Assembly (NCBI GenBank): GCA_907163375.1
Contig: CAJQUW010012904.1
Location: forward strand, 1 to 64,000
DNA from: Prostheceraeus crozeri
Taxonomy: Eukaryota; Platyhelminthes; Polycladida; Euryleptidae
Length of the DNA: 64,000 bases
Direction: 5' to 3'
Shown: positions 11,735 to 48,927 of the stretch, one piece after another
Layout: every line of letters begins with the position of its first letter
Numbering within the stretch: position 1 is the stretch's first letter
Program-made: the position numbers and the translations under genes
The notes under the pieces: generated by a model
Databases searched by the model: none
The model's input: the letters and a program-made list of their open reading frames with translations, nothing else
What the model was told of the DNA's origin: nothing

Positions 11735-13978
11735 CAGTGTTGTTCGATAAAACTGAATCACCTCTAAATTTTCCGAAAAAATGATCAAAAACAACTATTG
11801 TTCGATTCAATTCTGTTGATTAGCATTTGACCATTAACAAAAACATAAGAGAAGGGAAAGATTGACAAAATACATGTCAAACAAGTATCTCAGATGATCA
11901 ATAGTGAATTGGACCACCTCTTACTCTCATGCATTCCCTGATTCTGGAAGGCATTGAGTCAATCAAGTTGGGACACATTTTCTTCAGATCGTCATCTCTT
12001 GCCCATTCTCGCAGCAATGCGTTGATCAGTTCTTGTTTTGTTGTCAACGTTTCTTTTCTAATTTTGCGCTTGAGGATGGCCCAGATGTTCTCAATCGGTG
12101 ATAGATCTGGAGAGTTCCCAGGCCATTTGAGAACTCTGACGCCGGATTCATTCAAGAGTTGCATCGTTTTTCGTGATGTGTGGCATGGCGCTAAATCTTG
12201 CTGAAACCAATTTTCAGACGACGAATACCACTCATTTATCTGTGGAAGAAATCTTCCAGAGATGACACGTGCATACTGATCAGAGTTCATTGAACCTTCA
12301 ACCAAGTGAATACGACCAGTTCCATGGAATGAGATGCAGGACCAAATCATTAACTTCACTGGGTGTCTGAAGGATGGCTTGAAGTACATTCTTGTCGGAG
12401 TTTCACCGGAATTTCTCCTCATGAACTGCGACGCTGCCGGCTGTATTTCTACCGAGGTCTCGTCGCTGAATATAACTTTGTGCCAATCATCCAGCGTCCA
12501 GTCCTTGTATTCACGATACCATGCAAGTCTTCTTTTTTCATGTCTTCGGTCAGAACCTGGCATTTCAATGGACGATATGCTGGTCTGTCGTTTTCTGTTA
12601 AGCGTTTTCTTAAAGTTGATGGGCTGATGTCAATGTGATAATCATCTTTCAGTTTATGAGAGAGGTCGCTCGATGTTGCACGGGGATTTTCTCTGGATAG
12701 CTTCAGCAGAACTCTATCGCCCCTTTTATCGGTTTTTCTTTCAGATCCGCAGAGAAATCGGTAATTTTCGTATGAATTTGTGCTTCGGTACCGACTAATG
12801 ATGCGACTTGTGGATGATTGGCTCACACCGACAGGGCCTGCAATCTCATGTGTTGAAAGACCAGCATGCTCATGTAGTGCAACGACCTGGGCTCTGGTTT
12901 CGTTGTCTATATCACCCATTGGCCCCCAATTACGATACCCCAGTTTCGTATCCAAACAAATGAATTGTCTTATCAATGCTGTGATCTGCTGCTTTATAAG
13001 ACACTCGCTACTTCACTACGCAATTCAGCGGCGCCAGTCATGAATAGAATTCAATAGATTGATTGCATGAAGGTCTTCTGATCGAGTGTGAGTCATCCCA
13101 ACAGCTGCGCTGTGGATGATTTGATTAGCGTTGACACAGAAGCAATAGACAGCGATGATTTTGCGCTGGACCGGGTATGGGCGATAGTCAAGGCCCAGTA
13201 GCCTAAGCAATCAAGTGATCACCAGTTGTTCAGTTTATGAACTTCCTAGAGTTACGGAATGATTTTATTGAAAGCTGACATATCACATAAAATTCTGTGA
13301 AAAATACAGACTGTAAAAAGTACTTGCGCGAATTTTTCAGCCACTTTACTTGGAAAAAGCAAATTCTCCTGTTAATAATTCGATGTTTTGTTTGATGAGA
13401 CACTTGGTATCGCCATCCAGTGGCTCCAGTCATGAATAGAATTCAGTAGTTTGATTCCAAAATGTTCTTCTGATCGAGTATGAGCCATAACAACAGTTGT
13501 AGCGTGGATAATTTGATTAGCGTTGTGACAAAGCCGATAAACATTGATGATAGTGTGCTGGACCTGGTATAGACGATAGGCCTAGTAAGCAATTGAGTGT
13601 TGACCCAGTGTCCTATTTATCGGAATTCTCTGGAGCTACTGAATTAATTTATTGAAAGCTGACATGTCACGCAAATTTCTGAGAAAAGTACAGACTGCAA
13701 GAAGTACTTGCGCGAATTTTTCAACCACTTTACTTTTACTCCAAATATCAGTAAAATCTGCCGAAGCTTAGTTGTCCTAGTAAGGTCTGTCTTGGACGGA
13801 AAACTTGTTGCAGGTTAACTTTTGTCATCATAAAGTTTCAGAACATAACCAATGTGAACTAACTAAATGATTGGTGAAGCCTAATTTAGCAATTAATATG
13901 CTATGTAGCAAAGAAAAGAAGTTATCAGGAATGTACCTCAATTTTAATGGAGTGATTCAGTTTCATCGAACAACACTG
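11735..13978 (-). mobile_element. Tc1-type DNA transposon, nearly complete (2,244 bp)
   Basis: It is flanked by TA at 11733-11734 and 13979-13980. The ends match: the left starts CAGTGTTGTTCGATAAAACT and the right, reversed, CAGTGTTGTTCGATGAAACT, continuing through GAATCACC and GAATCACT. The transposase is on the minus strand (12919-11898). The 5' third of the element contains two diverged copies of a segment of about 400 bp (13028-13355 and 13426-13738) in direct orientation. The whole element lies in the intron of the SLC17 gene, in antisense orientation to it. The well-kept ends suggest recent activity. Confidence 0.92.
11898..12919 (-). pseudogene. Tc1-type DD34E transposase with one frameshift
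   Basis: The N-terminal half starts MGDIDNETRAQVVALHEHAG and holds a helix-turn-helix (LSTHEIAGPVGVSQSSTSRI) and a second DNA-binding motif (SSDLSHKLKDDYHIDISPST). The C-terminal half holds the catalytic triad: D in VIFSDETS, D in WFQQDLAPCHTS and E in SPDLSPIENIW, with exactly 34 residues between the second D and the E. The reading frame shifts once near 12540, between the PLKCQVLTEDMKK region and RRLAWYREYKDWTLDDWHKV. The rest is open to the TGA after GGPIHY. It acts on the CAGTGTTG terminal repeats. With a single break it is only recently dead, or the break is a sequence error. Confidence 0.9.
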
Positions 13979-35023: not shown

Positions 35024-35329
35024 TTAAGGTCCATTCTCAGCGTACGCGGCGCGAGTAGCAACCCCATTGCAGGCGCAAGTGCAAAATGTGAAACGATGAG
35101 TCATCATGCCGACTCAGCCCCCCCTCTGGCAGGAAGGTGAGGGAGAGAGCCAAGGATGTGTTGGGAGGAATGGGTCCGTGAGGAGGAAACGGGTCCCTAC
35201 CCCCCCTCTGGCGTGAAGGAAGGAGTGTTCGGGTAAGGGTTGGGCAGGAAGGTGATAGGAATGTGTGAGGGATAGAGTAAGAAAAGGCGGGTTTTTGTGG
35301 TTTTGGGATGAGAAAGTCCATGTTTCGGG

Positions 35330-35890
35330 CAGAAGGAGTGCTCGGATGGGAAAACGGTGGCCAGATTCGGAGCCTACGTGAAATGTTGGGTTAGGAAGGA
35401 TGTTTCCATCGACATCGGAGAGAAAAAGTTTTGAAGACCCCCCCCCCCCTCCTGCCAAACTTCCAACTTCGGTGTAAGAGATCGTAGAAAGTCGTGCAAT
35501 AGCTCATTTAAAAGCTGGGAGTGAGACAAATTCAGTGGAAAACATGGCTTGTTCGTATCTGCCTTCGTTTAGAGGTGAGACGTTATTGAAAATTTTGGAC
35601 CTTGGCGAAAAACGACAGAGTTAGAATGTTTATGAAAATCGCTCTAGCGGGTGAAGCAGAGACCAGATTTGGAATCAGCGTCAAATTCTGCTTCGGCATG
35701 GTAAATTTGGAAGCCATCGGAGAGAAAAAAATTTTCTTCATTTTTCCGAAAAACGACTGAGTTAGAATTTTTGCGATGGCTGTGGAGTGTAGAGCCAACA
35801 CGAAGCATCGGATGGGAAAATGGAGGGCAGATTCGGATTCAGCATCAAATTCTACATGGCAATGGTGAATTTCTAGCTCCATCGGAGCAC
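35330..35890. repeat. Diverged ~150-bp repeats upstream of the arm promoter
   Basis: Three related blocks (about 35330-35445, 35600-35735, 35745-35890). Each carries GGATGGGAAAA-like or equivalent sequence, a CAGATT(C/T)GGA block and CATCGGAGAGAAAAA or a close variant. The other arm (47.68-48.57 kb) has four, because the block with the poly-G run is duplicated there. They lie just upstream of the TATA box and could be enhancer-like. Confidence 0.65.
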
Positions 35891-35961
35891 TAGAACCGGA
35901 GATAGACGGGTTTTTAGTGTTTGGATGATGGGTATTACGTCATCAGTTGATCGTCACACAC

Positions 35962-36017
35962 TATATAAGCTGGGAACCGACAGAGATTTTTCATTTAGAG
36001 GAGAGCGATTGTCAAAG
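35962..36017 (+). promoter_or_regulatory. TATA box and likely non-coding first exon, left arm gene
   Basis: CTATATAAGC lies at 35961-35970. About 25-30 bases further a transcript could start, running to CAAAG followed by GTAGGT at 36018. The matching acceptor is CTATCTTTACAG, ending at 37445, eight bases before the ATG of the coiled-coil gene. The same elements are kept in the right arm (TATA 47593-47602, donor 47545, acceptor 47244). Intron length would be 1,428 nt on the left and 302 nt on the right. Confidence 0.55.
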
Positions 36018-37452
36018 GTAGGTCGTCTCTCTGAGCTCCGATGATAGCTTCGGACATTCCAAATTCCGGGTTTCTGTAAGAAACCGACTTAGAAAATTTC
36101 ATTCCTGAAGTCAGCTAAGGCGTCAGACTTAGAGGTTCGCCAGGAGATGGCCTTCGTCTCCAGGCCATAAAAGACTCCAAAACTTTAAAGGCTTGTAACT
36201 TTGCTTCTACAAGTCCGTTTGACTTGATTCAAAAAGTTTCGGTCGCTATTGACCTGCTCTAAGTAATAAACTACTTATAAAATTTCATAAGTAGTGCTAA
36301 AAAGTTGAAAAGTTTAAATTCACTAGTTTTGGAGGTTTTCTGGGGTTTTCGACCCTGCTGAAGTCAATGAAAGGATTTTTAATGATGTCTGAGCCAGTCT
36401 TCTCATGGTATAAGTAGCTTTTCACTGAAAGCGAGCAAGACACGGAGAGTTTTGCTGTAATATTCCACTGACAGGGTGTTCCTTCTGGACGGCGGACGAT
36501 GCCGTAGTGATAAGTGTGGCAAGGGAGTGTGTCATAGTTTAGACCGAAACCGCTGGGGCAACTCATGTCTCATGTTGGGCATTTGACACAGTTCTCAACG
36601 TAGCACTTTGAACGCCAATCGGTTGAGTCTTAGCTATCTTGTCATGGGTGGCCTCTAAACATCTCCATTGCAAAACGCTGGTGAATCAAGCTCTCTACGG
36701 CTTGCTATCAAGCTGATCGAAGCAACGACTTGGGTCGTTTCCTCTTGTAAATAACTCCACCGATTTTTATGTCAAAATCGGGGCCCGGATACCAACACAG
36801 TGACATGACGCACGCTCTGTCCGCTCGAGGTTGGATTTGTGGGTCGAGGCCTTGGAGATGGGATAAGATCCCCTCTGAGTAATGCCTGTAACGGATTCAA
36901 GAGCTTAACACCCAAACGGTTGCTGGCTTGCTATCAGGCCTTCTTCGTCTAGCCTCAGTAACTCAGGCTTGGCAACGTCTATCGTTTGTCATTGTAACTT
37001 GGTAAAAATGGGACGGTTACTGCAAGCATTGACGTCAAAACTTTTCGCGTCATAGGGAAATCCGTCTTTGTGTTGGGAGTTGGTAACAGAAAGCACGGTG
37101 ACTGCCGATTACCCATACATGGTAAAACTGCTGTTGTCAAGTTAAAAGCATGTCCAAATAAGGAAGGTCTGAATCATGGCTTTGTGCTCACTGGGTATAT
37201 AAACCGCGACTTTTTTCTAGTCTTCACTCCTGTTTCAAGTTGCAAGACGAACGGTGAGTGCTCTGACAAGGTTTGCTATCAAACTTTGGGATTTAGGATA
37301 AAGCTAGGAATCATACTCTTTAACTTTGGTTGACGATTTTATTCCAACGTTTGCTATCAAATGTTTGATGACTTTGTCTTTCAATGCATATCAGCAAGTA
37401 GTATCCTGTAAACACTTGCTATCAAATTTTACTCTATCTTTACAGAATTATC

Positions 37453-38555
37453 ATGACTAAAACTCCGCGCTTTATCATTACTCAATGCTCCTGCGGTAGA
37501 TTAGCAAGGGGCAGCGAATACCGTAAGCATATTAAAGAGGGGACGCTGGACCAACATGAGAGAGTGCATGCTTTTAAGGTCTGTGTTCATCATAGGGTGG
37601 TGTGCGATGAGGATGATGTTGAGGGTTTCCGGAAGGCGCATGAATCTTGCCCATCCGGAAACATTGGAGCGCAGTCGTTTCGTGAGTGGATGAGTGAATT
37701 AATTAAGGCGAAGGAGGAGTTGAATGCAGCAGTTAGAAGTATTGAGGGTGCTGTAGCGAAGGATCGGGAGGTAGTGTTGAGTGAAGAGGAAGTAGAGGTA
37801 GAAGGAGTGATTGAGCGGGCGAGTGATGAGACTAGGAAGTTGATGGTCTCATTGTTTGGGAGTGAGTTGTCTGATGAGACGGATGGTGAGGTGGCTGAGC
37901 CTGTAGCGACATCATCGCCTAGGAAAGAGGCGCATGATACGGAGGCGTTTGTGAGATTGAAGGATCGTATGATGGATATGGAGAGTGTGAATAGAAAAGT
38001 TTTGAAGGAGAATGATGAGTTGAAGGCTAAGGTTGAGGGTATAAAGGTGATGAGGGAGCAGTTGGAGGAGATGCGAGTGAAGGAGCAGGAGTGGTTGAAG
38101 GAAAGGAGTGGTATGATGAAGCGAGTGAAGGCGCTTGAGGGCTTAGAGTCGGAGTTGATGCGTGAAAAGAATGAGGTGGAGCGGATGCGAGGTGTGGTGA
38201 AGGAAGTGGAAGAGACGAAGGTGATCAACACGTGGTTGGGGAGTGAAGTGGAAAAGTTGCGAGAGGTTGAGAGAAGAGTGAAGAGGAAGAGAGTGTATGA
38301 GGTCCATCTTCCCCTCTTTGAAAACAACATCTGCGATGTGCCGACCCTCACAGACGACCCCAATTCGACACAGACATGTTATGAAGGCGAAGGTGTGCGA
38401 TGTCTCCACCTATCCATTAAAATGAATGGCGATTTGGAAGACTTTATCGACCGAAAAGTTGTAAAGAAAAAGCCGAGTAAGTTACTTCAACATGATCATT
38501 TCCTTGCCACCTCTAATCTCCTATTCTTTTTCTTTCAGAGTTTTTGCAGAAGTGA
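37453..38555 (+). CDS. Cys/His-rich coiled-coil protein, left arm copy (spliced, 346 aa)
   Basis: I do not recognise the family. Residues 12-66 hold many Cys and His (QCSCGR, H26, H35, H39, C44, HH 46-47, C51, H63, C66), a plausible zinc-binding head. Residues about 80-150 are acidic. Residues about 165-295 are highly charged with heptads (MREQLEEMRVKEQEWLKERS), a long coiled coil. The C-terminus is basic. A 62-nt intron (38477-38538, GTAAGT...TTTCTTTCAG) in phase 1 would make the protein end KKKPKFLQK with a TGA at 38553-38555. If unspliced, the frame continues to 38595 (380 aa) with a hydrophobic tail. The basic end looks like a nuclear localisation signal. Coding-strand purine bias is strong, unlike the surroundings. 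The right-arm copy differs at one residue (Ala40/Val). Confidence 0.75.
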
Positions 38556-38638
38556 GAGTGTCGGTGGACGGAGAACGACCCATGGGCCCTTTTAAGGGCC
38601 AACCTTCTAATGCAGCTAAAGCGGTCCCAAGCCCGCCA

Positions 38639-38654
38639 CATATCTTCGGATATG
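38639..38654 (+). promoter_or_regulatory. UUCG tetraloop hairpin in shared 3' segment (left arm)
   Basis: CATATC-TTCG-GATATG is a six-pair stem closed by C-G around a UUCG loop, one of the most stable RNA hairpins. It sits in a block of about 100 bp (38606-38702) that is almost identical at 41586-41690 behind the central acidic gene and at 46035-46050 in the right arm. With splicing it lies in the 3' UTR. It may act in mRNA stability or 3' end formation. Confidence 0.65.
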
Positions 38655-38788
38655 GAATGAAGAGGGGAAGAAAAATGATGAATGGAATGAAGGGAGGACA
38701 TTCATGCGCCACACGCAACACATCACAGACTTCTCTCTTTGCAAGTGAACAAGCTCTTGTCAGTGTCGTACAAAGCTTTTACTGCAGC

Positions 38789-39510
38789 ACAGGTTGATGT
38801 ATAGTTAGAGAGTTTGTTCATGACGTTTATTCATAAGTCTAGTCAGAAAGTGTATCATGGTTTGTACAAAAGTTTATACTGCACCACAGGTTGATGTATA
38901 GTTAGAAAATTTTATCATGACGTCTATTCATAAGTCTAGTCAGAAAGTGTATCATCGTTTGTACAAAAGTTTATACTGCCACGCAGGTTGATGTATAGTT
39001 AGAAAGTTTTATCATGATGTCTATTCATAAGTCTAGTCAGAAAGTGTATCATTGCTTGTACAAAAGTTTATACTGCAACACAGGTTGATGTATAGTTAGA
39101 AAGTTTGATCCTGACGTTTATTCATAAGTCTGGTCAGAAAGTGTATCATGGTTTGTACAAAAGTTTATACTGCAACACAGGTTGATGTATAGTTAAAAAA
39201 GTTTGATCATGACGTTTATTCATAAGTCTAGTCAGAAAGTGTATCATTGTTTGTACAAAAGTTTTACTGCAACACAGGTTGATGTATAGTTAGAAAAGTT
39301 TGATCATGACGTTTATTCATAAGTCTAGTCAGAAAGTTTATCATGGTTTGCAAAAGTTTATACTGCAGTACAGGTTGATGTATAGTTAGAAAGTTTGATC
39401 ATGACGTTTATTCATAAGTCTAGTCAGAAAATATATCATGTTGTACAAAAGTTTTACTGCCACACAGGTTGATGTAAAGTTAGAAAGTTTTATCATGACG
39501 TTGTATGACT
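38789..39510. repeat. 97-bp tandem array, left arm (~8 units)
   Basis: Units begin CAGGTTGATGTATAGTTAGA and carry ATGACGTTTATTCATAAGTC and a GTACAAAAGTTTATACTGC block. The period is 94-100 bp, with neighbouring units about 90% alike. The right arm holds about 5 units (45480-45930). The sequence after the array (39510-39800) seems to be older, decayed units sharing AGAAAGTTTTACTGC. Confidence 0.88.
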
Positions 39511-41070
39511 GACCGAACTCATCACAGCACTAGAAAGTTTTAGAAGGTTTTACTGCACAGTGTAGATTGTCTTGTAACTTACTTTCACAGTGTTAGAAAG
39601 TTTTATTGGAGACAGTTGCCAAATGTTTCCCTATTAGAAAATTTAAACTCCATGACTGTTAGATTAGCTTCATCAGGTTTACTAAAAGCAGTTTTCTACT
39701 GCAGTAAGACTGAGAGTTTAGAATGTTATATGAAAACAGTGTTCACCACAGCGCTAGAAAGTTTTACTGCGCTGTGTAGATTGTTTCACACAAGGTCTTA
39801 TAGTCAGCGTTGAATGTTTTATAAAACCAGATGTTGTCACAAACGTTGAGTGTGTGAGAGCTAGTTCCATGACATTGAATCGCATGGATTGTAAAGTTCA
39901 TAATCCAAGGCTAGGCTCCTCTACGGTTGGATTTAGGGTTTTATATTACATGCGTTAACTGTTCGTGTAGAATACGTGAAGAACATGTTTTCTTAAATGC
40001 TAATGTTGAAATAAGTTTGTAAGAAGTCTTTGACAGGTTGTTGTGAAACTTAGCGAACGTTGAAGAAATGTTTCTGCAGTCACACTCGTTAGCGTGCCAG
40101 CTTTACTAAATGTGTTGTTTGCCTTTATCAAATTGAATGCGTGTTTTGTAAATAAAGACAGACAGCGTGTTTGCACTCTGCATCGACAGCATACAAGTAT
40201 ACACATAACAACCTGTAGCGTTGTAAGTCGAATGCATATGAGTTAGGAAACACTCAAAACATGTGCTAGATAAAAATCAACCTGCTAGATGAAGTGAAAC
40301 ACAAAAGTGTCACAACTAGTTTACGGGAAATAAAGGAGAACTGTGACAACGTTTACACTCATCATAGACAGATGAACATATAGTCTAACTTTCTGACATT
40401 CAAATGAAAGTTGTAAACATGAACCGTGGTGTAAGAAACTTTATGTCAACAACTTCATGTTGGCAAAACTTTCATAGATTGCAGTCACATTGAAAGCTGA
40501 TATAAAGACCTGTAGAAACGCATAAGTCTTAGCTCAACGACTCGACCTTTGAACTCACACAATGAATACGTCTGTGTAGAAAACTCATTTGTAGGAAACA
40601 GCATTTTCTGTTCGAATTCAGACGATGTAAACATGACATTTAACATGGCTTGCAATAGTCAACACGCTGCCATTCAAAATGTTTATCATAAAACCTATCA
40701 GTGAAAAAACCCCTCCTGTGCCCACAAAGAATCATAAGTGCACTCTGACGCCTGTTTGTCTCGCTAGCCCCTCAGCAGATAGAGTACAACACAAAGATGA
40801 ATGACAGCGCAGCCGGTTGACGAGTGTCTGTCGCGCTAGCCCCTCAGCAGATAGAGTAGAGCACAAAGATGTACGCAATCTCTCTGGCGCCCGTCTGTCA
40901 CATGAAACAGAGAGCTATCACATCTGTCCCAGGATGCAGGAACGTATCGTTACCTCCCACCTAGCTGATTCCCACACAGTTTAGAGCAATATGATTGCAC
41001 GAACCAGACATTTGAATGGCTCTATCATTCTCACATAAAGCAGAGTCTTGTGCATTTTACTATCATAATC

Positions 41071-41480
41071 ATGTCCGAGAAGCCAACTGCTCAAGTTACC
41101 CCTTATAGGATTACTTATATGGGCGAAACTTTTCTCTCCAATGAGTGTGAGGATATAGTATTTGAATTTATGAAATACTATTCCTTGTTCGATGAATCGA
41201 ACGTTATACCTCCACCCGATTCCCCAATGATGGATCCGCAGGAATCTCCGAGTGAGACCGAGACGATGGCAAGTGACGCCGAGACGGTGGGGAGCGAGGC
41301 CGAGATGGCAACCAGCGATAGCGAGACGGTCGAAAGAGAGGAGATGATGTGGAGTGAGGACTCGGAAAGTGAGGACATGGAAAGTGAAGATATCATTGTG
41401 ATATCGGATGATGAAGTAAGAGTTTTACACATTCATACAAATGGCTGTCATCTCAACTCGTTCATGTTTTCTTTCAGTGA
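41071..41480 (+). CDS. Acidic protein with C-terminal SUMO-interaction-like motif (spliced, 115 aa)
   Basis: Family unknown. I start at ATG 41071 (MSEKPTAQVTPYRITYMGET); an in-frame ATG at 41050 adds seven hydrophobic residues. The N-terminal 45 residues look folded. The rest is acidic repeats of the SETETMASDAETVGSEAEM type. It ends EDIIVISDDE, a close match to the SUMO-interaction motif (hydrophobic I/V core followed by Ser/Asp/Glu). An intron with GTAAGA (41416) and TTTTCTTTCAG (41477) is 62 nt long. Splicing brings TGA in as the very next codon, so the protein would end exactly after the motif. Unspliced, it would run to 41562. The same-size intron and the shared 3' segment tie it to the arm gene. 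Confidence 0.6.
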
Positions 41481-41625
41481 TGGAGTGAGTGATGGGCGTT
41501 CTTTAGTTCATAGAATCATCATGCACACATACACCACACTGTTTCACCACATTTCCTCGTGAATGCATCATGAGTTCTTATAAGAACTTCCTTCTAATGC
41601 AGCTAAAGCGGTCCCAAGCCCGCCA

Positions 41626-41641
41626 CATATCTTCGGATATG
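41626..41641 (+). promoter_or_regulatory. UUCG tetraloop hairpin behind the acidic gene
   Basis: Identical CATATC-TTCG-GATATG in the shared block 41586-41690. The block lies about 110 nt after the splice acceptor of the acidic gene and also contains AAAGCGGTCCCAAGCCCGCC and a purine-rich tail. Confidence 0.65.
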
Positions 41642-41809
41642 GAATGCAGAGGGGAAGAAAAATGATGAATGGAATGAAATGGGAGGACACTCTTGCACCA
41701 CATGCAGCCACAAACACATTTCTATCTTCATTAAGATGACATTCAATCACTTGAATTCTAATGTGACCTAATCCTTATATCTCAGTACAGTCAACTCTCT
41801 AACGTACTT

Positions 41810-42150
41810 ATTAAACCGATTATAACTAACTTTACGAACACTGAAAGGATTCTAACATGATTTTATACGTCCCCTATCTTACACATACTGAAAGGATTCT
41901 AGCATGATTTCAAACTTTACAAACATCAACTTTATTTCTAACGTTACAAACAGTGAAATGCTTGTAACACTATTTTATACTTTACCTATCTTACAAACAC
42001 TGAAATGATTCTGACAAAATTCCTAACTTACAAAGAGTGACATGGCCGCGACTTTATTTTATACTACGCCTATCTTGCAAACACTGAAATGATTCTGATA
42101 TTATTCCCAACTTTACAAACAGTAAAATGGTTGCAACTTTATTACGAACT
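41810..42150. repeat. Diverged tandem repeats, centre of palindrome
   Basis: At least five loosely repeated units of about 65-80 bp with TTACAAACACTGAAATGATTCT-type cores (shorter quoted core: CACTGAAATGATTCTGA) and ATTTTATACT between them. They resemble the decayed units at 39.5-39.6 kb in the arms (CACAGTGTTAGAAAG reversed). Confidence 0.6.
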
Positions 42151-42559
42151 CAATCCACTCTGTTTGAAGCCCAACTTTATGTAAAAAGAAAACGACACAG
42201 TATGTACATGATATGTTATTGAAACCCACACAGCTTTTTGTTACACTAACAATTCAGTTCAATGTGAGCTAGTCTTGTATCACTCATTTCATACAACATA
42301 ACTTTTCATTTACTTATTCCTACAATGTTACTACTTAGTGTTCTAGACTTTATGAGTTCGCTTTCACTTCCATCTCACACTTTCTTCATCATCTAACCAC
42401 GTGAATGACATTGATGATACATTATCTGACTAAACGCATTGAGTCACATTCTACACAAACAGCTATTGCTAACATGGATCATATAAAACGCTAAGTCTTG
42501 TCATAGGCCTGACTATGATATGGACGTAGTGATTTATCTATGTAACTTACACTTTCAAA

Positions 42560-43200
42560 GCGCTAAATCCTTAAATCTCAACACAGGGAAACCTATCCTA
42601 TGGATTTAGGAGTTTTGCTGTATGATTTAGTAAACTTATGTCTCTGTCAGCATACGACTTTTAAAATACAACACTGACTGATGATTGAGGATCATATATT
42701 CCTAGCTAGGATAACAAGAAACTTTCCTGCGTTGACTATTACATATATTTTCCTCATCAACTCTTTACACACTTATGATTCCAATCACTAAGTTACATAC
42801 AACGCTTCTATTGAACATGCACCAATCACCTTTCAGCTGACCACATCAAATGTAAGGTGTATAACATAATGAGTATGTAACTATCTCTCATCAACGATAT
42901 GAAATCTGTCTTTTCACCATGAAAATTAAGTCTTGACTTCAAAGTCATTTTATAAAGCGAACATATGCATCACGTATTCTACACTAAAAGAGATCGTTCA
43001 TTTGTGTTATCCTAATCCCTAAGTCCCTAAATCCAACAGTAGGTAACCCTACCCCTCAGATAATGGACTTTATCAATTTAGCTATGTCATTCACCAATGG
43101 CTAAGTTAGTAAATGCATGTATACACTCTACAACAACAGTTATCATTGATGTATGTTCTATAAAACGCTAAATCTCTAAGTCCAACCGTGACTGCCATTG
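42560..43200. repeat. Recurring CTAAATCCAACNG modules
   Basis: Related blocks at about 42560, 43015 and 43155, and in the arms at about 45035 (reversed at 39910). Each has a TATAAAAC or AAAGC lead followed by CTAAATCC or close variant, a CAAC(A/C)GT block and a CCTANCC tail. Two also have ATTCTACAC some 40-70 bases before. This suggests that the centre and the arm sequence grew from one ancestral module. Confidence 0.5.
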
Positions 43201-43597
43201 CCTGCATTACTATAGAACATGTTGCTCTGATGATTCTTCCACCACCCCTACTCTTTCCATTTGAGGGGTAGTAAAGAAATAAATTCATGACTTCAGGTCA
43301 AAACCTCTCTCTACACACGTTTATATTTCACACCATGTAAAAGATCCTTGCTACTAATCATAGGGGCTTTAAAACTTTAAACATGATGATTTCATGGCAG
43401 TTAGAACTTTGAAGATGTGTGTTGGACAAGTTTAACAATTGTCATGAAGTTGAGTTCTCATCAGATGAATTTAATAAGAGCTTCTTCATTTTCTAAGAAA
43501 GATAGAGATCCTTGAATCTAGTGTTTGTGTGTGACTTTTCTTTGTTAATAGGGCGGCCTCCAACGAATTGGTGACCAGGCCCTCGGAAGGACCGATA

Positions 43598-43625
43598 GAA
43601 TACTTCGATTACTCGAAGTATTCCG
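43598..43625. promoter_or_regulatory. Perfect 11-bp-stem hairpin overlapping the stop of the 78-aa gene
   Basis: GAATACTTCGA and TCGAAGTATTC are separated by four bases (TTAC). The stop codon of the minus-strand gene lies within the hairpin. It could serve 3' end formation or be a protein-binding site. Confidence 0.65.
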
Positions 43626-43845
43626 GACGCTGAATTCTCAGCAACGCCAGATATTCTAGCGCCATGTCCCTAAATAAAGGGTTCTCCACAAGCTCATGTG
43701 GAATAAGGTTGACGGGGCAGCGAATTGCTTCGCCTTTCTCTGCCTGCAAAGCAGACAGAAGAAAGACTTTCCCCATCTTCACCCTGCATCCACAGCGGAG
43801 CTCAAGGGTTCGGCTCATGTCAAAGAAAGCGATATCGAACGACAT
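43609..43845 (-). CDS. Small CxC-motif protein (78 aa), centre of palindrome
   Basis: Unknown family. The N-terminus MSFDIAFFDMSRTLELRCGC is followed by VKMGKVFLLSALQAEKGEAI, a third Cys in RCPVNLIP, and a helical end (FRDMALEYLALLRIQRPEYF). The CxC near the N-terminus recalls the CSC of the arm protein. A TATA-like AAATATAAGGG lies about 45-55 bases before the ATG on the minus strand, so a short independent transcript is likely. The frame ends within a perfect hairpin. It faces the acidic gene tail to tail. Confidence 0.55.
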   Translation of the reverse strand: MSFDIAFFDMSRTLELRCGCRVKMGKVFLLSALQAEKGEAIRCPVNLIPHELVENPLFRDMALEYLALLRIQRPEYFE

Positions 43846-45479
43846 TGCTTCAAACGACTTGTATTTGATGAATGAGTGTGAACGTCTCCCTTATATTTCT
43901 CACACATTTTTGTAACTGGCTAGCCAGACATTGAAGAATTGAACAAATTGGCAGTGTCCATGCTTTAGCAGCAAATGGTGACTTGCGCGCGCGGAGTGTA
44001 CGGTAACGAACTGTCAACGTGAGAACCCTTTGAGTCGCCTACGATAATCTCTCCGACGCGATAGCAATGAGCTGTGTGGGAATCAGCTAGGTGGGAGGTA
44101 ACGATACGTTCCTACATCCTGGGACAGATGTGATAGCTCTCTGTTTCATGTGACAGACGGCCGCCAGAGAGAATGCGTACATCTTTCTGTTCTACTCTAT
44201 CTGCTGAGGGGATAGCGAGACAAACAGGCGTCAGAGTGCACTTATGATTCTTTGTGGGCACAGGAGGGGTTTTTTCACTGATAGGTTTTATGATAAACAT
44301 TTTGAATGGCAGCGTGTTGACTATTGCAAGCCATGTTAAATGTCATGTTTACATCGTCTGAATTCGAACAGAAAATGCTGTTTCCTACAAATGAGTTTTC
44401 TACACAGACGTATTCATTGTGTGAGTTCAAGGGTCGAGTCGTTGAGCTAAGACTTATGCGTTTCTACAGGTCTTTATATCAGCTTTCAATGTGACTGCAA
44501 TCTATGAAAGTTTTGCCAACATGAAGTTGTTGACATAAAGTTTCTTACACCACGGTTCATGTTTACAACTTTCATTTGAATGTCAGAAAGTTAGACTATA
44601 TGTTCATCTGTCTATGATGAGTGTAAACGTTGTCACAGTTCTCCTTTATTTCCCGTAAACTAGTTGTGACACTTTTGTGTTTCACTTCATCTAGCAGGTT
44701 GATTTTTATCTAGCACATGTTTTGAGTGTTTCCTAACTCATATGCATTCGACTTACAACGTTACAGGTTGTTATGTGTATACTTGTATGCTGTCGATGCA
44801 GAGTGCAAACACGCTGTCTGTCTTTATTTACAAAACACGCATTCAATTTGATAAAGGCAAACAACACATTTAGTAAAGCTGGTACGCTAACGAGTGTGAC
44901 TGCAGAAACATTTCTTCAACGTTCGCTAAGTTTCACAACAACCTGTCAAAGACTTCTTACAAACTTATTTCAACATTAGCATTTAAGAAAACATGTTCTT
45001 CACGTATTCTACACGAACGGTTAACGCATGTAATATAAAACCCTAAATCCAACCGTAGAGGAGCCTAGCCTTGGATTATGAACTTTACAATCCATGCGAT
45101 TCAATGTCATGGAACTAGCTCTCACACACTCAACGTTTGTGACAACATCTGGTTTTATAAAACATTCAACGCTGACTATAAGACCTTGTGTGAAACAATC
45201 TACACAGCGCAGTAAAACTTTCTAGCGCTGTGGTGAACACTGTTTTCATATAACATTCTAAACTCTCAGTCTTACTGCAGTAGAAAACTGCTTTTAGTAA
45301 ACCTGATGAAGCTAATCTAACAGTCATGGAGTTTAAATTTTCTAATAGGGAAACATTTGGCAACTGTCTCCAATAAAACTTTCTAACACTGTGAAAGTAA
45401 GTTACAAGACAATCTACACTGTGCAGTAAAACCTTCTAAAACTTTCTAGTGCTGTGATGAGTTCGGTCAGTCATACAAC

Positions 45480-45930
45480 GTCATGATAAAACTTTCTAAC
45501 TTTACATCAACCTGTGTGGCAGTAAAACTTTTGTACAACATGATATATTTTCTGACTAGACTTATGAATAAACGTCATGATCAAACTTTCTAACTATACA
45601 TCAACCTGTGTTGCAGTATAAACTTTTGTACAAACCATGATACACTTTCTGACTAGACTTATGAATAAACGTCATGATCAAACTTTTCTAACTATACATC
45701 AACCTGTGTTGCAGTATAAACTTTTGTACAAGCAATGATACACTTTCTGACTAGACTTATGAATAGACGTCATGATAAAACTTTCTAACTATACATCAAC
45801 CTGCGTGGCAGTAAAACCTTTACAAACCATGATATACTTTCTGACTAGACTTATGAATAAACGTCATGATAAAATTTTTCTAACTATACATCAACCTGTG
45901 TTGCAGTATAAACTTTTGTACGACACTGAC
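45480..45930. repeat. 97-bp tandem array, right arm (~5 units)
   Basis: Reverse complement of the left array. Units here have their own unit-specific differences, so the arrays have changed in number since the arms separated or were last made alike. Confidence 0.88.
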
Positions 45931-46133
45931 AAGAGCTTGTTCACTAGCAAAGAGAGAAGTCTGTGATGTGTTGCGTGTGGCGCATGAATGTCCTCCCTTC
46001 ATTCCATTCATCATTTTTCTTCCCCTCTTCATTCCATATCCGAAGATATGTGGCGGGCTTGGGACCGCTTTAGCTGCATTAGAAGGTTGGCCCTTAAAAG
46101 GGCCCATGGGTCGTTCTCCGTCCACCGACACTC

Positions 46134-47236
46134 TCACTTCTGCAAAAACTCTGAAAGAAAAAGAATAGGAGATTAGAGGTGGCAAGGAAATGATCATGTT
46201 GAAGTAACTTACTCGGCTTTTTCTTTACAACTTTTCGGTCGATAAAGTCTTCCAAATCGCCATTCATTTTAATGGATAGGTGGAGACATCGCACACCTTC
46301 GCCTTCATAACATGTCTGTGTCGAATTGGGGTCGTCTGTGAGGGTCGGCACATCGCAGATGTTGTTTTCAAAGAGGGGAAGATGGACCTCATACACTCTC
46401 TTCCTCTTCACTCTTCTCTCAACCTCTCGCAACTTTTCCACTTCACTCCCCAACCACGTGTTGATCACCTTCGTCTCTTCCACTTCCTTCACCACACCTC
46501 GCATCCGCTCCACCTCATTCTTTTCACGCATCAACTCCGACTCTAAGCCCTCAAGCGCCTTCACTCGCTTCATCATACCACTCCTTTCCTTCAACCACTC
46601 CTGCTCCTTCACTCGCATCTCCTCCAACTGCTCCCTCATCACCTTTATACCCTCAACCTTAGCCTTCAACTCATCATTCTCCTTCAAAACTTTTCTATTC
46701 ACACTCTCCATATCCATCATACGATCCTTCAATCTCACAAACGCCTCCGTATCATGCGCCTCTTTCCTAGGCGATGATGTCGCTACAGGCTCAGCCACCT
46801 CACCATCCGTCTCATCAGACAACTCACTCCCAAACAATGAGACCATCAACTTCCTAGTCTCATCACTCGCCCGCTCAATCACTCCTTCTACCTCTACTTC
46901 CTCTTCACTCAACACTACCTCCCGATCCTTCGCTACAGCACCCTCAATACTTCTAACTGCTGCATTCAACTCCTCCTTCGCCTTAATTAATTCACTCATC
47001 CACTCACGAAACGACTGCGCTCCAATGTTTCCGGATGGGCAAGATTCATGCGCCTTCCGGAAACCCTCAACATCATCCTCATCGCACACCACCCTATGAT
47101 GAACACAGACCTTAAAAACATGCACTCTCTCATGTTGGTCCAGCGTCCCCTCTTTAATATGCTTACGGTATTCGCTGCCCCTTGCTAATCTACCGCAGGA
47201 GCATTGAGTAATGATAAAGCGCGGAGTTTTAGTCAT
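46134..47236 (-). CDS. Cys/His-rich coiled-coil protein, right arm copy (spliced, 346 aa)
   Basis: Mirror copy of the gene at 37453-38555: ATG at 47236, intron 46212-46151 (62 nt), TGA at 46136-46134. The only visible protein difference over the full length is Val for Ala at residue 40. All Cys/His, the coiled coil and the basic end are kept. TATA box and 5' splice sites are also kept, with a 302-nt 5' intron. Both copies therefore appear intact, which means recent origin or ongoing gene conversion between the arms. Confidence 0.75.
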
Positions 47237-48927
47237 GATAATTCTGTAAAGATAGAGTAAAATTTGATAGCAAGTGTTTACAGGATACTACTTGCTGATA
47301 TGCATTGAAAGACAAAGTCATCAAACATTTGATAGCAAACGTTGGAATAAAATCGTCAACCAAAGTTAAAGAGTATGATTCCTAGCTTTATCCTAAATCC
47401 CAAAGTTTGATACCATCTCCTGGCGAACCTCTAAGTCTGACGCCTTAGCTGACTTCAGCAATGAAATTTTCTAAGTCGGTTTCTTACAGAAACCCGGAAT
47501 TTGGAATGTCCGAAGCTATCATCGGAGCTCAGAGAGACGACCTACCTTTGACAATCGCTCTCCTCTAAATGAAAAGTCTCTGTCGGTTCCCAGCTTATAT
47601 AGTGTGTGACGATCAACTGATGACGTAATACCCATCATCCAAACACTAAAAACCCGTCTATCTCCGGTTCTAGTGCTCCGATGGAGCTAGAAATTCACCA
47701 TTGCCATGTAGAATTTGATGCTGAATCCGAATCTGCCCTCCATTTTCCCATCCGATGCTTCGTGTTGGCTCTACACTCCACAGCCATCGCAAAAATTCTA
47801 ACTCAGTCGTTTTTCGGAAAAATGAAGAAAATTTTTTTCTCTCCGATGGCTTCCAAATTTACCATGCCGAAGCAGAATTTGACGCTGATTCCAAATCTGG
47901 TCTCTGCTTCACCCGCTAGAGCGATTTTCATAAACATTCTAACTCTGTCGTTTTTCGCCAAGGTCCAAAATTTTCAATAACGTCTCACCTCTAAACGAAG
48001 GCAGATACGAACAAGCCATGTTTTCCACTGAATTCGTCTCACTCCCAGCTTTTAAATGAGCTATTGCACGACTTTCTACGATCTCTTACACCGAAGTTGG
48101 AAGTTTGGCAGGAGGGGGGGGGGTCTTCAAAACTTTTTCTCTCCGATGTCGATGGAAACATCCTTCCTAACCCAAAATTTCACGTAGACTCCGAATCTGC
48201 ACTCCATTTTCCCATCCGAGCACTCCTTCTGCCCGAAACATGGACTTTCTCATCCCAAAACCTCCAACACCTGCCTTTTCCAACTCTGACGTTTTCTTGC
48301 CATTTTCCTCCCTAAACCCAGGAAAAGTGAACCAAACTGAGCTTTCCACTGCATTTTTCTCACTCTTAGCTTTCAAATGAGCTATTGCACGACTTTCTAC
48401 GATCTCTCACACCAAAGTTGGAAGTTTGGCAGAAGGGGGGGGGTCTTCAAAACTTTTTCTCTCCGATGTCGATGGAAACATCCTTCCTAACCCAACATTT
48501 CACGTAGACTCCGAATCTGGCCACCGTTTTCCCATCCGAGCACTCCTTCTGCCCGAAACATGGACTTTCTCATCCCAAAACCACAAAAACCCGCCTTTTC
48601 TCACTCTATCCCTCACACATTCCTATCACCTTCCTGCCCAACCCTTACCCGAACACTCCTTCCTTCACGCCAGAGGGGGGGTAGGGACCCGTTTCCTCCT
48701 CACGGACCCATTCCTCCCAACACATCCTTGGCTCTCTCCCTCACCTTCCTGCCAGATGAGTCAGCATGATGACTTATCGTTTCACATTTTGCACTTGCGC
48801 CTGCAATGGGGTTACTGCTGGCGCGGTCCCGCACGACTCTGTGTGAACAGTCACATAGGTTTATTAAGGTTCTGGACGAAGATTCTGACGCGTGAGGACG
48901 CGCCGCACCGCGTCCGGTGTGAATTAA

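Follow-up and report, generated by a model that had tools for sequence, protein, structure and literature searches.

What kind of element is the palindromic gene island in contig CAJQUW010012904.1 of the polyclad flatworm Prostheceraeus crozeri? The window, as we call the whole analyzed stretch of 64,000 nucleotides (positions 1 to 64,000 of the contig; assembly GCA_907163375.1), holds at 35054–48819 an element of 13.8 kb, which self-comparison of the sequence divides into two inverted arms, at ~35054–40990 (plus strand) and ~44061–48819 (minus strand), around a center of ~3.1 kb with two small genes. Gene 1 (37453–38595, plus) encodes 380 amino acids if unspliced, with a Cys/His-rich N terminus and a coiled coil, and is repeated in the right arm (46094–47236, minus). 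Gene 2 (41071–41562, plus) encodes an acidic protein of 163 amino acids, again unspliced, and gene 3 (43609–43845, minus) one of 78 amino acids. A sequence-only reading of this DNA had described near-identical inverted arms, the same gene in both, and a 3.1-kb center with two more genes. All of this is borne out, with the true outer ends at 35054 and 48819 rather than at 35049 and 48824.

The three genes are open reading frames with relatives in sequence databases: P0002 shares 53% identity with gene 1; P0003, in an ENA contig, corresponds to gene 2, and its C-terminal 48 residues differ at three positions; and P0004, in two JGI/ENA contigs, is 97% identical to gene 3. The profile search that had been proposed for the three proteins gave no Pfam match within the cutoff. 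No convincing PDB match was found for genes 1 and 3, no relative of genes 1 or 2 in IMG/VR, and none of gene 1 in phage records; a structure prediction for gene 1 from two sequences had a mean pLDDT of 53 and was not used. Genes 1 and 2 have strong splice signals near their 3′ ends, which by eye delimit possible introns of 62 nt each (38477–38538 and 41416–41477, both plus), yet the unspliced frames are open and conserved. The earlier claim of tiny introns holds for the signals, but the unspliced frame is conserved in relatives, so both forms may be used, and two C termini through alternative splicing are likely.

At its left edge the island has AGTAGCAACCCC, at its right edge the inverse of AGCAGTAACCCC (AGTAGC.../...ACTGCT), and GGCGCG stands on both sides (35048–35053 and 48820–48825, plus) as a perfect 6-bp target-site duplication. 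Similar ends, mostly AGTAGTAACCCC, surround other copies of gene 1. Six elements, the window element and five others with homologous ends, have both ends in the stretches read, and the 6-bp duplications of each match by eye (window GGCGCG; C4480 GAAATC; C12815 GTGGCT; C3622 CGCATC; C1282 AGCAAA; C6858 GATGAA); a single end was found in the stretches of C13086, C10515, C7365, C4349, and C4884. Vertebrate Mavericks have (AGT)2 ends and 6-bp duplications, according to the excerpt of PMC8097293 consulted here. Because the island has Maverick-type ends—AG-type termini with inverted repeats—and a 6-bp duplication, we read it as a Polinton/Maverick insertion with the limits 35054–48819, and a derivative of this class it almost certainly is. 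Its genes 1–3 have no Pfam match and no core gene lies inside it, so we class it by its ends as a palindromic, nonautonomous member. The TTAA boundary proposed at first fails: the TTAA words at 35024–35027 and 48924–48927 (by eye) lie outside the true ends. A TTAA/piggyBac element was accordingly rejected, the ends being AG/CT flanked by GGCGCG, with no TTAA duplication.

How widespread are relatives of this element in the flatworm genome? We searched 2.05 Gb in 14,165 contigs; the genome-wide lists of gene 1, gene 2, integrase, type B DNA polymerase (PolB), and TATA-binding protein (TBP) hold the best candidates only, and their counts are lower bounds. Gene 1 is listed at no fewer than 108 places (109 rows; 65–100% identity), two of them in the window, which answers the earlier call for other genome copies with at least 106 further places and with palindromes of the same layout at C4480 and C12815. 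Gene 2 has at least 150 scored places (79–100%), mostly open and often in inverted pairs a few kilobases apart. The integrase likewise has at least 150 scored places (93–100%), PolB at least 82 (94–100%), many with open frames of >1,300 amino acids, and TBP at least 150 (97–100%), of which two in 150 have an internal stop.

Ten other loci of 20–36 kb each (L024–L051), picked for carrying gene 1, fall into three types whose gene sets are unmixed as far as read: two of type A, five of type B plus one palindromic type B remnant, and two of type C. Type A (C1282 and C4884) carries an integrase, a protease, and an adenovirus-type core protein. Both of its loci have the rve-chromo integrase (rve 1.8e-7, just under Pfam's cutoff; Chromo 8.6e-8) and the Ulp1-like protease. 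C1282 has a match to adenovirus core protein X (Adeno_PX 3.3e-6) and a RING protein, with similar frames visible by eye in C4884; a frame with a Walker-type GPSHSGKT motif, seen by eye and with no significant Pfam match, is found in C4884 only. Type B (C6858, C13086, C7365, C10515, and C4349, with the whole or part of the gene set) carries a C2H2 zinc-finger protein, PolB (DNA_pol_B_2 2.7e-12), and, in the opposite orientation, a divergent TBP (1.9e-19 and 7.4e-22; L036:8276–8836 in C6858 and L038:8530–9072 in C13086, minus). Type C, with genes 2 and 3, comprises the window element, C4480, and C12815, all of the same layout. In tblastn searches at E ≤ 1e-6, no PolB was found in type A with the type B protein, nor, as far as read, an integrase in type B with the type A proteins. 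The sequence-only reading had seen no viral core gene, polymerase, or transposase: this stands for the island but not for elements with the same ends, which carry integrase, polymerase, protease, and adenovirus-type core protein, though across two types. As side observations, a transposase of the piggyBac type (PF13843, 1.2e-70; L036:502–1677, minus) is nested in the type B element of C6858, and the same-strand PolB pair at C3151:29247/49224, 20.0 kb apart, and the same-strand integrase pair at C8775:869423/881080, 11.7 kb apart with a twister at each, look like tandem copies.

Are the Polinton genes truly divided between elements? Two complete elements, the type A element of C1282 (18.6 kb) and the type B element of C6858 (21.0 kb), both lie between target-site duplications and are thus whole elements, not halves of one. 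Among the listed best candidates, an integrase lies within 30 kb of PolB at none of the 82 PolB and none of the 150 integrase places, and within 60 kb at one of the 82 PolB places, whereas the positive control, TBP within 6 kb of PolB, is recovered at 49 of 82. Of the 150 TBP places, 0 have an integrase within 20 kb and 2 have one within 30 kb. The simplest reading is that the genes of a Polinton have been divided among separate, same-ended elements, and on this sequence evidence we lean toward the family being a segmented Polinton. Alternatively, types A, B, and C might be deletion derivatives of one complete Polinton, nonautonomous and mobilized by intact copies that have escaped view. Nonautonomous derivatives are common among DNA transposons, the integrase, PolB, and TBP lists are restricted to best candidates, and the palindromes of C3622 and C11920 resemble defective derivatives. 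C3622 is built from a single type B end in two inverted copies, with a matching target-site duplication, a divergent integrase fragment lying 3 kb outside its ends; C11920 (82300–86950) is 99.4% self-inverted over 4.6 kb, with no unique center. We nevertheless think this explanation unlikely, given the PolB–integrase distances against those of the control, the genes that A and B each carry and that were not found in the other, the recurrence of each layout, and the near-identical, open-frame copies of both A and B.

How might the transcripts of genes 1 and 2 end? The animal histone stem-loop has the consensus GGYYYU-UHUH-ARRRCC, and GGCCCTTTTAAGGGCC, which overlaps the stop codon of unspliced gene 1 (38585–38600, plus), and AGTTCTTATAAGAACT of gene 2 (41573–41588, plus) both fit it, the latter with A-U for G-C as its first pair; being self-complementary, the gene 2 loop matches on the other strand as well. 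The third loop belongs to the right-arm copy of gene 1 (46089–46104, minus; Rfam and consensus scan). A consensus scan with full pairing finds exactly these three places in the window, each before a twister, where 100 shuffles predict 0.01 (strict) or 0.05 (relaxed) by chance. Each loop is followed by a match to the twister-P1 ribozyme (RF03160): 38604–38670, plus (34.0 bits, E 8e-5; one P2 mismatch), 41591–41657, plus (41.3 bits, E 6.6e-7), and 46019–46085, minus (34.0 bits, E 1.3e-4). The covariance model recovers the conserved core with P1, P2, and P4. The sequence-only reading mentions neither the loops nor the ribozymes. Twisters cut at U/A, and the predicted cuts, at 38608/38609 and 41595/41596, lie 8 nt (gene 1) and 7 nt (gene 2) downstream of the loop. 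Fold energies of the twister stretches, with the loop in or out, are ordinary (z −0.2 to −1.5), which leaves the covariance models and the consensus to carry the case.

The arrangement recurs in the genome. Scanning 29 genome loci for the twister core with 0–1 mismatch gave 17 sites, 16 of them after gene 1 or gene 2 (five more hits, with two mismatches and at other positions, were not counted). Upstream of 16 of the 17, C4349 being the exception, there is a consensus stem-loop with full pairing, and in C3622 its first pair is A-T for G-C on both sides; the 17 sites are copies, not independent events. A pattern of stem-loop and twister with a variable gap was absent from viral contigs and from prokaryote contigs (0 in each), and a twister 16-mer occurs in fifteen IMG/VR contigs. 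In type B we also observed a stem-loop, GGTYCTCTTAAGGGCC plus ACC, directly before an ATG and with no twister (L040, C6858:176443–176458, minus), with copies of the arrangement at C10515, C7365, and C4349.

A genome-wide twister search gave at least 38 places, the window's own not among them, and none in 14 control genomes. A listed integrase lies within 12 kb of 11 of the 38; in 10 of these 11, the twister precedes the integrase by 3.1–4.1 kb on the same strand, at the position where gene 1 of type A ends. Of 11 sites read among the 38, eight show a hairpin with a 5-bp stem, AGCCTTTAYGAGGCT (once AGCCTTTACTAGGCT), followed by ACCCA (once ATCCA), with the cut predicted 6 nt beyond the loop; in the other three (L059, L061, and L062) the hairpin is missing. 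P1 and P2 of this second lineage are unlike the first in sequence and fully paired in the three sites aligned to the Rfam model, among which L054 has two broken P3 pairs. Of the eight sites, L055, L057, and L063 have one P2 mismatch each. L062 (C10774:124395–124446) is a 38-bit twister match of another sequence type, with no stem-loop and no element link seen. A parallel search for the histone loop returned at least 52 places, and a hit in one of the 14 control genomes that fell below the cutoff. Five of the 52 were read: four are by eye the 3′ ends of gene-1-like genes, which have the canonical GGCTCTTTTAAGAGCC, lack a twister core, and contain a stretch rich in purines, GGAGCAAGAG or GAAGCAAGAG, that we take to resemble the U7-binding element; the fifth is something else. 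P0002 keeps a gene 1 tail ending HGLF-stop, which is what a loop of the GGCTCTTTTAAGAGCC type would encode, and a divergent gene 1 homolog (25–29% identity) next to the element of C12815 has the loop but lacks a twister. Since twister-less gene-1-like ends keep the loop, the stem-loop varies less than the ribozyme, which seems to stand in for the downstream element. The genome holds two pieces of the domain of the stem-loop binding protein (SLBP), both on C10478; the better one has E 8e-11, and the other, at 1e-4, contains a stop within the match.

From these motifs it is quite likely that the 3′ ends of the gene 1 and gene 2 mRNAs are made by a twister that cuts after a histone-type loop. The stem-loop and twister could be real and still serve another purpose, such as setting free small RNAs or RNA circles or reducing expression through mRNA cleavage; among mobile elements that produce circular RNAs, some are known to contain self-cleaving ribozymes (PMC7761336). 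Two observations make such a role improbable: a cut 6–8 nt after a histone-type stem-loop is predicted in two different twister lineages, and the gene-1-like relatives that have no twister keep the stem-loop in place, followed by the purine-rich stretch.

Taken together, our preferred explanation is that the island is a type C member of a Polinton family whose types A, B, and C are mutually dependent parts and whose genes 1 and 2 end in a loop and a twister; we give it a probability of roughly 0.7. Under this reading, A, B, and C would make up a single virus-like element, as its segments or at any rate as parts that need one another: B would replicate the other types, A would integrate and perhaps package them, and C would be a passenger. 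Snap-back palindromes are expected of a linear genome copied from its ends, and here a replicating linear end may have snapped back and copied itself; the window element would be a palindrome of this type with a short unique center, now a recurrent type. Transcription would start from TATA boxes: those claimed earlier are present, as TATATAA at the predicted arm promoter (35962–35968, plus; right-arm copy at 47601, minus) and at a second predicted promoter in the left arm only (37196–37202, plus). That the element's own TBP serves them has about an even chance. The transcript would then fold the histone-type stem-loop, and the twister would cut it 6–8 nt downstream, approximately where histone pre-mRNA is cut, leaving a tail-less mRNA usable by the host SLBP with neither U7-type processing nor polyadenylation. 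The more demanding proposal—a segmented Polinton with polymerase and a TBP of its own on one DNA segment, integrase and virion proteins on a second, and palindromic satellites like the island as additional segments, all united by common ends, whose gene-1 family has swapped U7-dependent histone-type processing for a twister, in two separate ribozyme lineages, with mRNAs that pass as histone mRNAs—could as easily be wrong as right.

Several observations weigh against our explanation. The gene-1 loci were chosen for gene 1, so their sharing of it is partly selection; many gene 1 copies contain stops; and a listed gene 1 lies within 30 kb of only 3 of 82 PolB and 8 of 150 integrase places. Most PolB and integrase copies may belong to relatives beyond the loci whose ends were read, and, the lists being of best candidates, an unlisted element with both genes could exist. 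The complete elements read are one of type A and one of type B. PolB was sought in type A by the type B protein alone, at the E ≤ 1e-6 given above, and part of the open reading frames was searched, Pfam covering 10/16 of those listed in L034, 6/15 in L036, 5/15 in L038, 1/14 in L050, 18/26 in L040, L045, and L047 together, and 2/10 at the end of L033. No double jelly-roll major capsid protein was recognized from sequence: three candidate frames in type A have no Pfam match, and one of the three, of 547 amino acids, has no convincing PDB match. All twister matches score under the Rfam gathering score of 67.2 bits (the genome maximum is 57.1), as does the gene 1 loop under that of RF00032 (21.3 bits, E 0.014, against 34); the gene 2 loop, found by the consensus scan, is unlisted by RF00032 at E ≤ 5, and the second lineage's variant loop, with its 5-bp stem, is likewise absent from the hits of the Rfam histone model. 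The twisters of gene 1 in the window and of C13086 have a P2 mismatch and that of gene 1 in C12815 one in P1; the ribozyme of gene 1 in the window is probably weakened by its mismatch. The remaining one of the 17 twister sites, in the right arm of C1282, has loop and twister with no gene 1 frame, and a listed twister lies within 12 kb of only 11 of 150 integrase places.

Could the palindrome instead be an assembly artifact, or a host palindrome homogenized by gene conversion? The interior of the arms is 99.5% identical where alignable (21 substitutions in ~4,080 bases, summed over 250-base bins of 35250–40500), the 1,143-nt gene 1 holding 1 of the 21, while the inner 173 nt are only 91% alike. 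They also differ in length: 1,126 bases (36151–37276) are present in the left arm only, 318 in the right arm only, there is a further 72-base difference, and a 97-bp tandem array has ~7.6 units in the left arm (38768–39502, plus) and ~4.6 in the right (45477–45921, minus). Separate palindromes of the same layout at C4480 and C12815, with different target-site duplications, make this explanation very improbable and dispose of the host palindrome that the sequence-only reading had entertained. The herpes-like short segment of that reading, our own first idea from the layout and here an inserted malacoherpesvirus segment (internal repeat, unique region, terminal repeat; IRS-US-TRS), can practically be dismissed, because the Polinton termini, the 6-bp duplications, and the Polinton genes carried by copies with these ends contradict it and a Pfam search of genes 1–3 and a comparison of the ends found no herpesvirus genes or ends in the island, even though the excerpts consulted describe a ~3.4-kb unique segment between 9.7-kb inverted repeats in OsHV-1 (PMC11878034) and an integrated malacoherpesvirus from lancelet (PMC12373286).

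How does the family compare with known systems? With Polintons/Mavericks (adintovirus-like) it shares (AGT)2-type termini, the 6-bp target-site duplication, the size range, the rve-chromo integrase, PolB, the adenovirus-type core protein, and the Ulp1-like protease. Unlike them, it has its core genes on different element types, encodes a TBP, and bears a stem-loop and twister at gene ends. The available parts of PMC4028283 and PMC8097293 describe Polintons with PolB, integrase, ATPase, and protease together, and those of the latter give intact vertebrate Mavericks terminal inverted repeats of 46–1447 bp, in contrast to arms of ~4.8–5.9 kb here. Bidnaviruses have a two-part genome with a Polinton-related polymerase but are single-stranded DNA viruses. 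Animal histone pre-mRNAs, which are processed through the stem-loop, SLBP, and the U7 snRNP, have the same 16-nt type of loop close after the stop codon and a cut a few nucleotides downstream, as is predicted here; in the twister lineages, however, a ribozyme motif occupies the position of the U7-binding element. The conserved core and predicted U/A cut are those of twister (RF03160), whereas its place immediately behind a histone-type stem-loop, where element genes end, is not. Among the literature matches listed, none joined a twister with a histone stem-loop, a Polinton with a ribozyme in this sense, or a Polinton with a TBP. To our knowledge, the natural roles of twisters in eukaryotes are largely unknown; here one would sit at the expected step of histone-type 3′-end formation, beside a stem-loop that gives meaning to its product, in genes where this is directly testable. 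If true, the divided gene set would show a one-piece virus-like transposon becoming segmented, and a TBP gene on the element would offer an unusual example of a general transcription factor supplied by a small DNA element.

Some minor features of the window remain. GC content in 1-kb bins is 34–49% in the island and 32–45% in the flanks; GC skew reaches +0.30 in the left arm and −0.44 in the right, in agreement with the purine-loaded coding strand noted at first. The end of gene 3 (43597–43624, minus) forms a 12-bp hairpin with the stop codon inside its loop, followed by a strongly folded stretch of 88 nt (z −4.2) with no Rfam match in the region; this hairpin might be another kind of 3′-end signal. 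Around the gene 1 leader in the left arm (36702–37423) the plus strand has five copies of TTGCTATC, a motif also present in the right arm, against five in 50 kb of flank with both strands counted. The flanks look ordinary: they contain MFS transporter exons and a Tc1/mariner-type transposase, the latter in two overlapping frames at 11898–12919 (minus).

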